A stretch of 23,841 nucleotides of DNA from a virus, in the IMG/VR virus record IMGVR_UViG_3300042922_000446, positions 1-23,841 of that record; one strand, 5' to 3'. The position numbers and the translations under genes were made by a program. Below are positions 2,490 to 23,841 of the stretch, piece by piece. How positions within the stretch are numbered: position 1 is the first letter of the stretch; each line of letters opens with the position of its first letter. The notes beneath the pieces were generated by a model. It did no database searches. It was not told where the DNA came from and worked only from the letters and a program-made list of their open reading frames with translations.

Positions 2490-3767
2490 TTACTTCAGAA
2501 TCGTAATACCATTACCCTTAAAGATTATCGTATAGCAGAAATATCTAACTGCATCCATGGCATGATCATGCTGTTTTAATGGCTTATCTTCACCCCGTTC
2601 GCACGCCTTGATATCCCATATATAACTATTGAATTCCAGGATGGTATTCTTGCACTCTTCAGAGAATGCAATTAGCTCTTTGTTCAAGAGAGTGCCTACA
2701 AAACGGATACCGTCAAGAACATCGTTCTTAGCCTTCCTGATCGTGTATCCCTTTTTTCTTAGTTCAGCAATAAATGATGCTGCACTAGGATCTACAATAA
2801 CTGCTTTGGGCTTAATTCCTCCGAGAAACTTGGCCAGATCATCAGCATATTCAGTGTCTGTTTTCTGCTCTGATTCATCCCGGCCGGAATAGTAATATTC
2901 TTTAATGCAGATCCACTTACCACCGCGATTTCTACACCATAAAAGGAATACGGTAGCGTTCTGAGTACCATAGTCAATGCTCACATAATAAGTATCTGTA
3001 ATTAGGTCGATAAGCTCCTTGACTGTATGTTTTGCCCGATCGAACATATCATAGATGACGCCCTCAGCAACTACCCATAATCCTAATATGTATCGCTGAT
3101 AGAACACTCCGTAATACATCGATCGGTATCTCGCCTTAATCTTCTCCGAAAGACTCAGGTTGTCATCCATTGTGAAATGCAGATAAAGCAAATTCTTTTC
3201 GAATATCTTATCTATCCAGTTAAGCTTAAACCAGTGATATGGTCCGTCCGGATTGCAGTTAAACCAGAATTTCGAACCGTCAACAGAACAACGACCGGTC
3301 GCTTGATTAACAAAGGATTCCGGCATCAGTGCAACTTCATCAAAAAAGCAGCCTGCCAGGGTGATACCTTGTATCAGATCCTGTGACCGCTCGTCTTTAC
3401 CACCAAATACGTAAAAGTAATTTGTTTTTTCTCCCCTGGTTACCACTAGGAGGTTATCAGCCCTATGATCAACAACTCCATATCCCCGAGACCGGAGCAT
3501 AAGCTTCAGCCAGAATAATACGTTTCTCCGGAAGGAACCGATTGTTTTACCACACATACCGAAGTTCTGATTAGTGAATGCTGTCATAGCCCAAATAACG
3601 AATGACAGTGACATAGACAACGTCTTACCGGATCGGATAGCTCCATCGGCAATAATACCGTCTTTATCATGCATCGGTGAATTCGGTAGCCACCAGGTTA
3701 ACACTTTGAGCTGCTTAATTGAAAATGGTTTAAATTTAAATATAGCCTGTTTTATTCTTCCGACCAT
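2490..3767 (-). CDS. Terminase large subunit (PBSX-type ATPase/nuclease)
   Basis: 425 residues. This is the motor that pumps phage DNA through the portal and cuts the concatemer. The ATPase domain shows a Walker A variant GAIRSGKT (residues 42-49) and a Walker B strand ending in Asp143-Glu144 (GCFFDE). The RNase H-like nuclease domain shows the expected acidic residues: Asp265 in SIDYGTQN, Asp326 in VIVDPSA, and Asp401/Asp405 in HDHAMDAVRY. No catalytic residue seems lost and the length is normal, so it should be functional. The start ATG lies 16 nt inside the end of the small-subunit gene, indicating translational coupling. Confidence 0.95.
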   Translation of the reverse strand: MVGRIKQAIFKFKPFSIKQLKVLTWWLPNSPMHDKDGIIADGAIRSGKTLSMSLSFVIWAMTAFTNQNFGMCGKTIGSFRRNVLFWLKLMLRSRGYGVVDHRADNLLVVTRGEKTNYFYVFGGKDERSQDLIQGITLAGCFFDEVALMPESFVNQATGRCSVDGSKFWFNCNPDGPYHWFKLNWIDKIFEKNLLYLHFTMDDNLSLSEKIKARYRSMYYGVFYQRYILGLWVVAEGVIYDMFDRAKHTVKELIDLITDTYYVSIDYGTQNATVFLLWCRNRGGKWICIKEYYYSGRDESEQKTDTEYADDLAKFLGGIKPKAVIVDPSAASFIAELRKKGYTIRKAKNDVLDGIRFVGTLLNKELIAFSEECKNTILEFNSYIWDIKACERGEDKPLKQHDHAMDAVRYFCYTIIFKGNGITILK

Positions 3768-4561
3768 ATCTCATCAACCTTTCCAGAAAGAGCATCTAGG
3801 AATCCATCATCTTCAACGATATCGTTGTTATCGTTAAGCTGTGCCTTTGCCTTTGCGAGCTCTAGTTTCTTATTGTCCATATCGATTGTATGTTCTTGCA
3901 TTTTGGCAGTGTTTGTAATTGCATAGAGATCCTTAATGTTTTTAAGAGAAGAGGTAACAAAAAGAAGGCCCTGTCTATCTATAGGACCGGTAGTTGTTTC
4001 TATTCTCTCTTCTTCATCAACGACCTCTTTTGTGGGTTTTCCCGGTGCAGATGCATCCTTGTATTCAATTATTTTGGTCTTTTTCTTATTTGTAACCAGA
4101 TAAGTCTCGAGCTCATTAAGTGATTGCTCAGCCTTGGAAGCAGCTGTGTCAGCGATGGCTAACAATCTCAATATCCGATCGGCATCTTTGTCGGCGGATC
4201 TCTCAACCGCTTTTTGTGATACCTTTGTGATATATTTCAATCGCTTGTCCTTCCAATCATTAGAAGCTGCATACTGCCTTAAGTAATCATAATCCAAATT
4301 ATATTTTTTACTTAAATCTTTTAATGTGAATGGGCTCTTTCGAATATCAGTTACATATTCCTTCTCAATCTCAATCCACGATACACCATCCGAACGTTCG
4401 CTTTTTTTATCCGAGCGTTCGTCTTCCCAATTATGAGTACTTTTCCATCTTCGGACCGTACCTTCTGGAAGATTTAATTGATTAGCTATTTCAATTAATT
4501 TCTTTCCAGATCGGAAAAGATTATATGCTTCACTATATCTTTCATCCGGTGCCCTTGCCAT
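3752..4561 (-). CDS. Terminase small subunit (YqaS-like)
   Basis: 269 residues. The N-terminus (MARAPDERYSEAYNLFRSGK) followed by a helix-turn-helix (IANQLNLPEGTVRRWK, about residues 24-39) is characteristic of Firmicutes small terminases related to B. subtilis YqaS. The family recognises the packaging site and regulates the large subunit. A second tryptophan-containing HTH-like segment (about 75-100) and an oligomerisation helix region follow. An upstream in-frame GTG at 4570 would add three residues, but ATG 4561 is preferred because GAGGTGGG sits just before it. The gene lies directly after an intrinsic terminator (hairpin 4603-4620), leaving about 30 bp. Its transcription therefore probably depends on read-through or antitermination. 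Confidence 0.88.
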   Translation of the reverse strand: MARAPDERYSEAYNLFRSGKKLIEIANQLNLPEGTVRRWKSTHNWEDERSDKKSERSDGVSWIEIEKEYVTDIRKSPFTLKDLSKKYNLDYDYLRQYAASNDWKDKRLKYITKVSQKAVERSADKDADRILRLLAIADTAASKAEQSLNELETYLVTNKKKTKIIEYKDASAPGKPTKEVVDEEERIETTTGPIDRQGLLFVTSSLKNIKDLYAITNTAKMQEHTIDMDNKKLELAKAKAQLNDNNDIVEDDGFLDALSGKVDEIWSEE

Positions 4562-4592: not shown

Positions 4593-4620
4593 GTATAAGA
4601 AAAGCACCCCGAAGGATGCT
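4593..4620 (-). terminator. Intrinsic terminator before terS
   Basis: On the minus strand the stem AGCATCC / GGGTGCT with loop TTCG (forward 4603-4620) is followed by TTTTCTTAT. The seven pairs include one G-U. It closes the small peptide transcription unit 4694-4817 and stands between any upstream promoter and the terminase small subunit gene. Confidence 0.82.
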
Positions 4621-4693
4621 TATATTTTGGTATAGTTTTATACTTCCGTTAATACTTGCAACCAACATCATAATGACTGTTGGCGCACCGCAA

Positions 4694-4753
4694 TTACTCT
4701 TTAATAGCAACCACGATGAATAAAACCATTGCAAGTACTAATACCGCAAACAT
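4694..4753 (-). CDS. 19-residue hydrophobic membrane peptide (possible type I toxin-like)
   Basis: ATG 4753 to TAA 4694 encodes MFAVLVLAMVLFIVVAIKE, a single predicted membrane span with a charged C-terminal tip (Lys-Glu). A ribosome binding site GGGGTGAG sits about four bases before the ATG. A sigma-A-type promoter (ATGACT, 17 bp, TAAAAT; 4789-4817) lies just upstream, and a Rho-independent terminator (4593-4620) lies downstream. This makes a complete monocistronic unit. In the mRNA, codons 5-9 (forward 4729-4741) can pair with the 3' untranslated region (forward 4649-4661) over 13 bp with one G-U, a long-range fold like those in type I toxin mRNAs. Size and composition resemble Ibs/TisB-class peptides, but no antisense RNA is identified. 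A phage membrane peptide of other function is equally possible. Confidence 0.6.
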   Translation of the reverse strand: MFAVLVLAMVLFIVVAIKE

Positions 4754-4817: not shown

Positions 4818-4830
4818 TATGTAATTACTG

Positions 4831-4868
4831 TAAAAAGGCACCGTTACGAGATCTAAGTCTCCGGTGCC
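4831..4868 (-). terminator. Intrinsic terminator ending the early transcript / structured RNA
   Basis: Minus-strand hairpin with outer stem GGCACCG / CGGTGCC (7 bp) and inner stem GAGA / TCTC, followed by TTTTTA (forward 4831-4836). It is the first strong terminator after the late regulator gene. It probably ends the long minus-strand early transcript and the folded RNA at 4831-5180. Confidence 0.82.
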
Positions 4869-5180
4869 TACCTGCACTCTCGCAGGCTTTGAATTATCTT
4901 ATGGCCATTTCGGCTCTGATATTTGTCGTGGAAGGCACTCAGAATTCGGTCATGCCGGACAACTCTGAATGCCTTTCTTATGAGGGGGTATTGGGATAGG
5001 TTTCTTCTCCGCCCAGGTAAAAGCGATTTTATTGAGCGGATAATCAGCTGCCGAGCTATGACACCCGGCAACCATATCATGAAAGGAGTAATGAACGATT
5101 CCTCTGTGTCGGTCCAGAGGTGAAGCAGCTGCCGACTTATTCAGCCAAGCAGCCACCGGAGGTTTCTGTCAACCTTCTAC
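4831..5180 (-). ncRNA. Candidate structured RNA between late regulator and terminase
   Basis: About 350 nt without a plausible gene, holding successive hairpins on the minus strand: 5127-5154 (GGCTGC/GCAGCT plus inner GGCT/AGTC), 5101-5120 (CCTCTG/CAGAGG), 5050-5071 (TGCCG/CGGCA), 5009-5039 (CCGCTC/GGGCGG plus inner TAAAA/TTTTA), 4932-4975 (15 bp plus 3 bp cap), 4871-4886 (CCTGC/GCAGG) and the terminator 4837-4868. Several stems contain G-U pairs on the minus strand that would be A-C mismatches on the plus strand (two in 4932-4975, one in 5009-5039), so the minus strand is the RNA strand. A 10-mer cagctgccga occurs twice, 81 bp apart, at hairpin arms. Large phage RNAs such as GOLLD and ROOL are known in Firmicutes phages, but I cannot assign this one. 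An antitermination leader or a packaging site are alternatives. Confidence 0.55.
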
Positions 5181-5190
5181 GCTACTATGT

Positions 5191-5248
5191 TATCACATGA
5201 TAAATAACATGAAAATATCATCTTTTTATCATGTTTCTATCACATGAT
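5191..5248. promoter_or_regulatory. Cluster of CATG-centred repeats before the structured RNA
   Basis: The 11-mer tatcacatgat occurs exactly at 5191-5201 and 5238-5248. Two further CATG cores lie at 5208-5211 and 5230-5233, giving four CATG cores within about 50 bp. A 7-bp inverted repeat (ATGTTAT/ATAACAT, 5188-5211) overlaps. The cluster covers the stop of the late-regulator gene and the region just upstream of the RNA candidate, where a late promoter or regulator binding site would be expected. The 10-mer tatcacatga also occurs at the Cro promoter (21639-21648). No -35/-10 pair is convincing here. Confidence 0.35.
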
Positions 5249-5734
5249 TTCTACGCCGTCACAACCAAAAATCCTTATACTGAGATCTTTTGTAACATCA
5301 GTAATCCATCTTCTTACTGATATAGTACTTGTATTTAGTTTTTCAGCTTCAGCCTCATAGCTCACTCCACTAATTAGGCAATCATACAGGGCGTCGTATT
5401 TATACAGCATATCTTTTTGCTTATATTCAATTCTTGCAAGTTCCAATGCCCTGTCAATGTGAGAGATTACTATAAGACTCTTCAGTTTGCTTCTTCGGAT
5501 ACTATTGATGTACACCTCTTCATCATCATTGTAAGATATAGTATCCTGATCTAATTGATTTGCTTCGGATATTGCTTCCTCAATGCTGTTCTTAATCTTG
5601 TCATAATTCTTAAGCAGCATCTTAGTATTGTGAAGGGCTTTCCTCTTCTTCTCTGCCTTCTGTTCCTTGTTGTATTCCTTGATAGCTGTTTTAACTGCCT
5701 TGCTTATTAACTCATCAGCGGTTGCTTGATTCAT
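5240..5734 (-). CDS. ArpU/RinA-like phage late transcription regulator
   Basis: 164 residues. The N-terminal half is highly charged and helical (KEYNKEQKAEKKRK). The C-terminal part (about 115-160: KYDALYDCLISGVSYEAEAEK then TSTISVRRWITDVTKDL) looks like a sigma-70 region 4 type helix-turn-helix. That is the layout of ArpU/RinA-like regulators, which sit as the last early gene just upstream of the terminases and switch on late genes. The position here fits exactly: last protein gene before the non-coding block and terS. A strong GGTGATC ribosome binding sequence lies just before ATG 5734. Family assignment rests on fold pattern and position. Confidence 0.72.
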   Translation of the reverse strand: MNQATADELISKAVKTAIKEYNKEQKAEKKRKALHNTKMLLKNYDKIKNSIEEAISEANQLDQDTISYNDDEEVYINSIRRSKLKSLIVISHIDRALELARIEYKQKDMLYKYDALYDCLISGVSYEAEAEKLNTSTISVRRWITDVTKDLSIRIFGCDGVEIM

Positions 5735-22118: not shown

Positions 22119-23627
22119 ATGATTAAAGCTGCGGAGTATGCTCGATATAGTTCCGATAATCAACGTGAAGAAAGCATTGAGGCTCAGATCAGAGCAATAA
22201 GGGAATATGCAGGAAAAAACGGTTATGAAATAACCCGGTCGTATGTAGACGAAGCTGTATCAGCAAAAACCGATAATCGACCTCAGTTTATCCAAATGAT
22301 ATCAGATGCTAAGAACGGGCTTTTCGATGTTGTCATCTGCCATAAGCTAGATAGATTTGCTCGTAATAGATATGACAGTGCTATCTATAAAAAAAGCTTA
22401 CGCGACAATGGCGTAAGACTCGTTTCTGTTTTAGAAAACTTCGATAATAGTCCAGAAAGTATTATTCTTGAATCTGTCTTAGAGGGTATGGCAGAATATT
22501 ATTCTGCTAACTTAGCAAGGGAGGTTATGAAGGGATTGAAAGAGAATGCTATGCAATGCAAGCATACTGGGGGTAAACCGCCATTTGGTTACAATGTTGT
22601 GAATAAGACATATGTCATAAATGAGCAAGAAGCAATTGCAGTAAAACAAATATTTCAGATGACTTTAGCAGGCCAAAGCTATCTTGATGTTAGAAAATGG
22701 CTTAAAATGAATGGATATAAGACAAAATATAATTCAGACTTTTCATCAAGGTCCATTAATGAAATATTGAAAAACGAGAAATACATTGGCACGTATATCT
22801 ATAATAAAAAGAAGCGTGTTTTAGTTGGTGGAAAAAAACAAGATATTCAGCATGACGAAGAAGAAATTATCAGAATTGAAGATGGCGTACCGGCCATTAT
22901 TGACAAGGAAGTTTTTTATCAGATTGAACAAATATTAAAAAGCCGGCTTCAGCGTGGGGCAGGATCATCTAGGGCAAAAGAATTGTATATGCTAAGCGGT
23001 AAATTGTTTTGTGGCGAGTGCGGAGGATATATGAATGGTGCCAGATTTCATGGTGGATCAAATAAACATCTGTATATCGTCTATGAATGCTCTAATCGTA
23101 GACAAAAGAAAAATGAATGTGTTAAAACAATTATAAACCGAGATAAGATTGAGGCCCATGTTATTAATGAATTAGATGAGAAGCTGTTTTCTGATGTGGT
23201 CAGTTCAAGTATTATCGACAAGATAATCGAAAATGCAAAATCTATGAGTTCTCAAATTCCTGACGATATTAAGAAATATGAATCAGAGCTTACAGGCATC
23301 AATAAGCAAATAGACAATATTGTCGATGCAATCGCGCAAGGAATGTTTCAATCGTCCATGAAAACGAAATTGGATGATCTGGAAATAAGGAAAGAAAATC
23401 TAAAATCAAGAATAGATGAAGCCAAGAGACAATTGAGAGCAATATCCTTGCCAGATAGAGACGAGATCGCTTTAAAAATGCAGCCATATAAAAATCTGCA
23501 TGAAAAAAGCCCTGATCAGAAGCGAGCTGCGATCGAGGCTTATGTTAAAAAAGCTACCGTTTATAATGACGGTCGTATCGATATAAAAATCGACTTGAGT
23601 AAAATACATGGAGCTGAGGGGAGTTGA
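22119..23627 (+). CDS. Large serine recombinase (phage integrase) ending inside host ssrA
   Basis: 502 residues. The N-terminal resolvase domain carries the catalytic serine Ser11 (YARYSSDNQRE) and the active-site patch HKLDRFARNR (Asp78, Arg79, Arg82). The recombinase DNA-binding domain covers about 150-275 (GGKPPFGYNV; YIGTYIYNKKKR). The zinc ribbon is Cys298-x2-Cys301 with Cys324 and Cys334. A coiled coil at about 385-440 and a C-terminal segment follow. CGGAGG precedes ATG 22119. The last six codons (GAEGS and stop TGA) lie within the ssrA 3' end, so the host gene supplies the end of this reading frame after integration. Without a directionality factor such enzymes only integrate; none is recognised here. 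Confidence 0.95.
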   Translation: MIKAAEYARYSSDNQREESIEAQIRAIREYAGKNGYEITRSYVDEAVSAKTDNRPQFIQMISDAKNGLFDVVICHKLDRFARNRYDSAIYKKSLRDNGVRLVSVLENFDNSPESIILESVLEGMAEYYSANLAREVMKGLKENAMQCKHTGGKPPFGYNVVNKTYVINEQEAIAVKQIFQMTLAGQSYLDVRKWLKMNGYKTKYNSDFSSRSINEILKNEKYIGTYIYNKKKRVLVGGKKQDIQHDEEEIIRIEDGVPAIIDKEVFYQIEQILKSRLQRGAGSSRAKELYMLSGKLFCGECGGYMNGARFHGGSNKHLYIVYECSNRRQKKNECVKTIINRDKIEAHVINELDEKLFSDVVSSSIIDKIIENAKSMSSQIPDDIKKYESELTGINKQIDNIVDAIAQGMFQSSMKTKLDDLEIRKENLKSRIDEAKRQLRAISLPDRDEIALKMQPYKNLHEKSPDQKRAAIEAYVKKATVYNDGRIDIKIDLSKIHGAEGS

Positions 23628-23645
23628 ACCCCTGTCCGAAAGCCC
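23601..23645. other. Attachment site region (prophage/host junction at ssrA 3' end)
   Basis: The recombinase C-terminus overlaps the acceptor-stem and T-arm sequence of tmRNA (tggagctgagggg then gttgaacccc). The crossover must lie at or near here because the recombinase is phage and tmRNA is host. The exact 2-bp crossover cannot be fixed without the partner site at the left end of the prophage, outside the window. Confidence 0.6.
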
Positions 23646-23841
23646 ATTCATTGCAGTTTCTCCCATTACAGTCTATCTTTTATGCGAACCCGAAGTTCGC
23701 TGTTCCCTCCGCCAAGCGCCGACAAACAGGCTCTTGGTTTCGGTAGCTTCATAGATCTTCTATCACCTCAAAGCTTTGGAGATAGAGGGCCCCGCTAATT
23801 TGATGCCGAGGTCCTAAGCCGCGAGTTGCCTAGGGTCGACA
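23609..23841 (-). ncRNA. ssrA: tmRNA, 3' part (5' part off window)
   Basis: The minus strand ends CCCCTCAGCTCCA at 23609 with an encoded CCA, and the T-arm GGGGTTCAACTCCCC precedes it. Pseudoknot-like stems follow upstream (for example GCGAACTTCGGGTTCGC). tmRNA rescues stalled ribosomes by tagging nascent chains. The tag-peptide frame is not visible, so the tag and 5' half lie beyond 23841. The mature 3' end is intact, as expected when the integrating phage restores the gene. Confidence 0.93.

Follow-up and report, generated by a model that had tools for sequence, protein, structure and literature searches.

In the window, the 23,841-nucleotide stretch of phage DNA analysed here, a strongly folded RNA is predicted on the minus strand between a late regulator gene and terS, and one of its hairpins, P2b, belongs to a class whose base pairing is conserved in many other phages. 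We propose that this region forms the 5′ leader of the late operon and that its P2 hairpins make RNA polymerase resistant to terminators in cis. From sequence comparison, we give this reading a probability of about 0.5. Regulator gene, predicted promoter and terS follow each other on one strand, as expected of a late-operon leader, and the complete succession of activator, promoter, folded leader, terminators and terS corresponds to an antitermination operon. The features of the region are collected in Table 1.

Table 1. Features of the late regulator–terS region, in the order in which they would be transcribed (positions of the window).
Feature	Position	Strand	Remarks
Late regulator gene	5240..5734	-	phrog_1558, sigma-like HTH
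Conserved box	5201..5242	-	probable activator-binding site / upstream part of late promoter; directly behind regulator stop codon
Extended -10	5187..5195	-	TGATAACAT
P1 hairpin	5160..5178	-	GAAGGTT...AACCTCC
P2a hairpin	5124..5157	-	P2 variant with short GAAUA-type loop, 29 nt past the -10
Hairpin	5101..5120	-	CCTCTG...CAGAGG
P2b hairpin	5042..5073	-	GGTTGCCGGGTGTCATAGCTCGGCAGCTGATT; widely conserved element
CCGC...GGGCGG module	5008..5040	-	inner TAAAA/TTTTA stem, GAAACC after; common to L004, L036, L081, L084
Stem of exactly 15 consecutive bp	4932..4975	-	cognate of the first terminator of relatives
Small hairpin	4870..4887	-	ahead of T2; present in L013 and L034 too
Intrinsic terminator T2	4831..4869	-	expected RNA 3′ end; hairpin 4869-4836, U tract to 4831
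Hydrophobic peptide ORF	4694..4753	-	19 residues, MFAVLVLAMVLFIVVAIKE; promoter-like sequence 4817-4789; between T2 and T3
Intrinsic terminator T3	4594..4621	-	scanner: 4621-4602; 34 nt ahead of terS start codon
terS	3752..4561	-	ATG at 4561; first late-operon gene; PF10668, phrog_1889
terL	2490..3767	-	phrog_10250, phrog_2

The minus strand from 4825 to 5200 folds at -130 kcal/mol (z -4.25, equalled by 0 of 100 shuffles), whereas the plus strand reaches a z of only -1.77. The 365-nt minus-strand stretch 5190-4826 has a z of -4.8 and a folding energy of -128 kcal/mol; the median energy of equal windows of the phage is -76 kcal/mol, and a few of them reach a similar z (12 shuffles each only). 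A structured minus-strand RNA adjoining terS had been proposed in an earlier note made from the letters alone, and the description given there holds: the strand forms seven or more hairpins and ends with one that resembles an intrinsic terminator, and the 15 continuous pairs reported for one stem were counted again exactly. Unlike the first terminator of relatives, this 15-bp stem has no U tract. The second terminator, T2, is of a type also found in L013 and L034, and was missed by a simple terminator scanner because its stem is branched. P2a occupies in the window the position that P2b has in other leaders, and the loop of P2b is 8 nt long (UGUNANAG). A conserved coding frame, which according to the earlier note would have spoken against an RNA, was not seen: tblastn searches with three overlapping ORFs of the region gave only matches of 13-25 residues, whereas the neighbouring regulator was found throughout.

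The conserved box behind the regulator gene is 90% identical over 42 nt to the corresponding sequence of the Clostridioides difficile phage phiCDKH02, and the regulators of the two phages are just 35% identical. Nothing beyond this promoter box was found when annotated phages were searched for DNA similarity to the window; for one relative, Blautia phage Montmirail was a DNA-similarity match. Scanning a 19-nt core of the box through all IMG/VR returned 20 stretches, all but three located directly 3′ of a regulator homologue; an extended -10 stands downstream of these matches, and after it, in nearly all of them, a terminator. Judging from this conservation, the box is in all likelihood a late promoter element. 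With box and extended -10 placed after the regulator stop codon, transcription should begin near 5180, which is the end of the interval delimited in the earlier note. The same box stands behind the regulator in C. difficile phages (L005 4460-4600, L011-L026), with a leader of only ~75 nt that is ended by a terminator. Regulators of the phrog_36 family hold in other phages the position taken here by phrog_1558.

Regulator homologues were drawn from viral contigs and from Herbinix, Lachnoclostridium and Anaerocolumna genomes. Most of these relatives share one leader plan, composed of GGAAGGTTG...AACCTCC, one or two 10-bp P2 hairpins and a body that varies, closed by a terminator (AAAAGGCATTC...GAGTGCCTTTTTT); L084 carries the same full RNA as the window, but behind a phrog_36 regulator. 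Under a strict rule, a terminator was detected in 19 of 29 leaders behind regulators, as compared with 1 of 29 on the antisense strand and 1.6% of shuffles, seven genome loci in the wrong orientation being left out of this count. P2b is separated from the terminator by a body of ~30 to ~500 nt, and minimal members such as L098 keep just these two elements. Among close relatives, a pseudoknot-like module is nearly invariant. The leader of a Lachnoclostridium prophage (L031 5550-5967) contains tRNA-like, pseudoknot-like, TACGA-loop and P2b-like modules in changed order, and another relative carries GP20-b RNA (RF03003), a known phage cis-regulatory motif (L087 3080-3143, minus strand). With terS as search query we recovered one fragment, and the region is absent from that fragment.

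P2b is conserved by its shape. We searched with a pattern in which only the stem base and the loop (GGYTGNNNNNTGTNANAGNNNNNNRGCTGATT) are fixed and the inner stem is left free; it matched 39 IMG/VR contigs, and all ten pairs form in 38 of the 39; the reversed pattern, used as a control in IMG/VR, gave 0 matches. In 26 distinct sequences, 99.6% of the cells are paired (86.6% after shuffling), 30 double changes are seen (6 after shuffling) and the covariation score is 0.524 against 0.251 +/- 0.020, counts that treat related phages as independent; slid structures, which keep the relatedness, score 0.19 at most. In a partly independent set of 12 leaders, 97.5% of the cells are paired, 19 are changed on both sides and the score is 0.658 against 0.335 +/- 0.038. 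G-U pairs account for 81 of 260 P2b pair cells (~31%) and become A-C on the other strand, so that the conserved entity is the RNA of the late-gene strand and not the DNA. Both the asymmetry between G-U and A-C noticed earlier in the window and the covariation among homologues proposed then as a check are thus found in this hairpin class.

When 397 Lachnospiraceae-family genomes were searched with model R1, one P2b was found, behind a phage tail-like gene. Several other candidates were set aside. A leader pattern based on P1 gave two chance matches in coding sequence (L079, L080), and L083, matched by a second pattern, is also due to chance. A CTTGCTT/AAGCAAG pseudoknot is unproven, being misplaced by the alignment in 2 of 6 rows, and was not counted, and a pairing of P1 with downstream sequence predicted by RNAalifold involves columns that hardly vary.

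P2b is found in two genomic contexts. At promoter-type sites it begins 45-166 nt after the regulator gene, with a -10 located mostly 29-50 nt before it, a spacing that in the window holds for P2a; the -10 candidates are less clear in L095, L099 and L114. Ten promoter-type regulators outside the close family had their best match with phrog_36 in nine cases and with phrog_1558 in one. In the second group, P2b lies 5-54 nt after tail-fibre-like or similar genes and not directly behind a promoter. Sites of this type were seen in L088, L089, L090, L093, L096, L101, L103, L105, L106, L111, L112 and L122; behind tail-fibre-like genes, P2b is followed by terminators and then by genes resembling cargo or defence genes before terS. 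These sites are possibly an insertion hot spot. In both groups, the same strand usually carries terS or a related packaging gene 0.1 to 2 kb further on, and L097, L108 and L116 have P2b matches without such a context. A terminator was detected within 700 nt downstream of P2b in 33 of 37 cases, as compared with 10 of 37 on the antisense strand and 20% of random windows, and within 300 nt upstream in only 1 of 37.

Terminators are also found at the other end of the leader region. In 8 of 10 phages checked by script, one lies directly before terS, against 13 of 99 control ORFs. The distance from its end to the terS start codon is 23-34 nt in seven of the ten (the window included) and 89 nt in an eighth. 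An interval of 23-34 nt that already contains a ribosome-binding site can hardly accommodate a promoter, and those terS genes would therefore have to be reached by readthrough. Between P2b and the last terminator before terS there are often small genes that have their own promoter-like sequences. The hydrophobic peptide ORF of the window is possibly such a cargo gene, encoding a small membrane protein; a hydrophobic peptide of 25 residues (MYASGNETIIIVLVLILLIIIALKK) stands after the leader of L039. Elsewhere in the window (22119-23841), a serine recombinase gene runs at its end into the 3′ portion of a tmRNA (RF00023, 23606-23841, minus strand), and the phage appears from this arrangement to be a prophage integrated at ssrA.

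An antitermination leader, a second thought in the earlier note, is the best-supported function for the region. The regulator would activate the promoter directly behind its own gene, and polymerase starting there would produce the folded RNA. The P2-type hairpins, first to emerge, would then render the elongation complex resistant to termination in cis, either directly or through a recruited host or phage factor, perhaps the activator itself. Unmodified complexes would halt at T2 and release an RNA of ~350 nt, whereas modified complexes would pass T2, the small cargo gene and T3 and reach terS-terL and the other late genes. The terminators would also insulate the late operon from transcription of the cargo gene and from stray transcription in the lysogen. 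Operon-internal terminators are considered indicative of processive antitermination (PMC8955417). Conservation of P2b and terminator around a variable body favours a cis signal carried by P2b over one fixed trans-acting RNA. Against this reading, the terminators may simply be leaky, and it leaves the tRNA-like domain of relatives unaccounted for.

This domain was recognized by the Rfam tRNA model inside the leaders of L013, L032, L036, L037, L038, L040, L100, L109, L114, L115 and L117, with 33-50 bits in several relatives. Our own tRNA-like descriptor matched 14 of 39 stretches in the sense orientation, two of the 14 being doubtful, and 0 of 39 in antisense. The anticodon loop is often exchanged for a longer one (GCGCGCGCAUAACA); an oversized, conserved loop in the anticodon arm (GGCGCGCGCAUAACA or close) with no usable anticodon was observed in L013 (1666-1745), L036, L081, L091, L114, L115 and L117. 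ARAGORN rejects the domains of L003 and L013, and phage Montmirail is an exception, with a tRNA-Asn annotated at the corresponding position. The window contains neither a tRNA with a usable anticodon loop nor the tRNA-like domain, which it has either lost or never had.

The main rival explanation is a discrete noncoding RNA of the phage, broadly of the GOLLD/ROOL kind, that would be made late, be ended by T1/T2 and act in trans on ribosomes, on tRNA enzymes or as an RNA particle. GOLLD and ROOL are large, folded RNAs known from phages and prophages; they are located close to tRNA islands, and tRNAs are present in the linker of some GOLLD RNAs (PMC12286853). The tRNA-like domain of many leaders resembles these linker tRNAs and by analogy may leave room for a role in trans, as would the very stable fold and the near invariance of the pseudoknot-like module. 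We nevertheless consider such an RNA doubtful here, given the missing domain in the window, the wide variation in length and content, the changed module order in L031 and the reduction of L098 to P2b and terminator. The RNA of the window is also shorter than GOLLD and ROOL and sits between a late activator and terS. The likeness to large phage RNAs suggested in the earlier note thus survives as a parallel, through the tRNA-like domain, and fails as family membership: at gathering score, the Rfam models of GOLLD and ROOL matched neither the window nor ~30 relatives, and at relaxed score neither the window leader nor L013. No Rfam family was recognized in the region; relaxed thresholds yielded only chance matches well below gathering scores.

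It is rather improbable that the regulator alone, in the manner of lambda Q, joins polymerase at the promoter and takes it past the terminators, with the leader as a by-product like lambda 6S RNA. This explanation would suit the C. difficile phages, whose short leaders end in a terminator, and L062, which has the order regulator, promoter, terminator and terS with the terminator 28 nt before terS; no P2b is present in either, though the leader has a terminator. In these phages the activator or another agent would act, and P2b could have another role. However, the conservation of P2b shape across different regulator families would be left unexplained, and these families are annotated as transcriptional regulators or activators, not as known antiterminators. 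The element usually lies upstream of terS, where a DNA packaging signal (cos/pac) or a phi29-like packaging RNA might be sought, as the earlier note had also considered. Either is very improbable: a G-U-paired RNA of one strand is conserved, the distance to terS is variable, phi29 pRNA has no Rfam match in the region, and terS and terL are both present, in contrast to the phi29 motor, which has no terS. Single-sequence z-scores alone are weak evidence, but chance folding of an intergenic spacer is hardly credible, being contradicted by covariation, controls and the spread over many phages.

If the antitermination reading is right, control in this phage would work most like that by lambda Q, put or conAn, as an analogy that implies neither membership nor sequence relation. 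In lambda, the late regulator gene Q is followed by the promoter pR′, the 6S leader, the terminator tR′ and the late genes. The window has the same succession of late regulator gene, promoter, terminated leader RNA and late genes, but its regulator is an unrelated sigma-like HTH protein and its leader contains a conserved covarying hairpin. The put RNA of phage HK022 acts in cis with no dedicated protein (PMC9378689). Like P2, it consists of promoter-proximal hairpins in a leader upstream of terminators; it differs in serving early genes of a coliphage and in being ~70 nt long with two defined stems, and no sequence likeness is claimed. In conjugation operons of Gram-positive bacteria, conAn is an RNA located close to the beginning of a long, terminator-containing operon and allows differential expression of the genes in it (PMC8955417). 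The window leader has a similar placement and similar terminators, whereas conAn has a partner protein, ConAn1, and serves conjugation. LoaP is associated in Bacillota with the dfn hairpin, located in the leader ahead of a terminator (PMC12691694); dfn is of the UNCG type, unlike the 8-nt loop of P2b. No Rfam match to EAR was found in the region.

For phages of Gram-positive bacteria, the main mechanism known to switch on late genes is the activation of a promoter ahead of terS, and to our knowledge LoaP, EAR and conAn do not serve phage late genes. No description of such leaders was found in the open-access literature, which is not proof that none exists, and the P2 class has a realistic chance of being new in its own right. 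More tentatively, P2 could be a new class of RNA acting as a cis processive antitermination signal in late operons of clostridial phages, associated with sigma-like activators and insulating cargo located before terS, with the tRNA-like domain providing a second function (e.g. RNase P processing or tRNA mimicry). If so, a covarying hairpin that dozens of phages carry between late activator and terS would represent a directly testable new system, and would explain how cargo genes can sit before terS. In viral metagenomes, the P2 hairpin would also be useful as an RNA marker of late operons.
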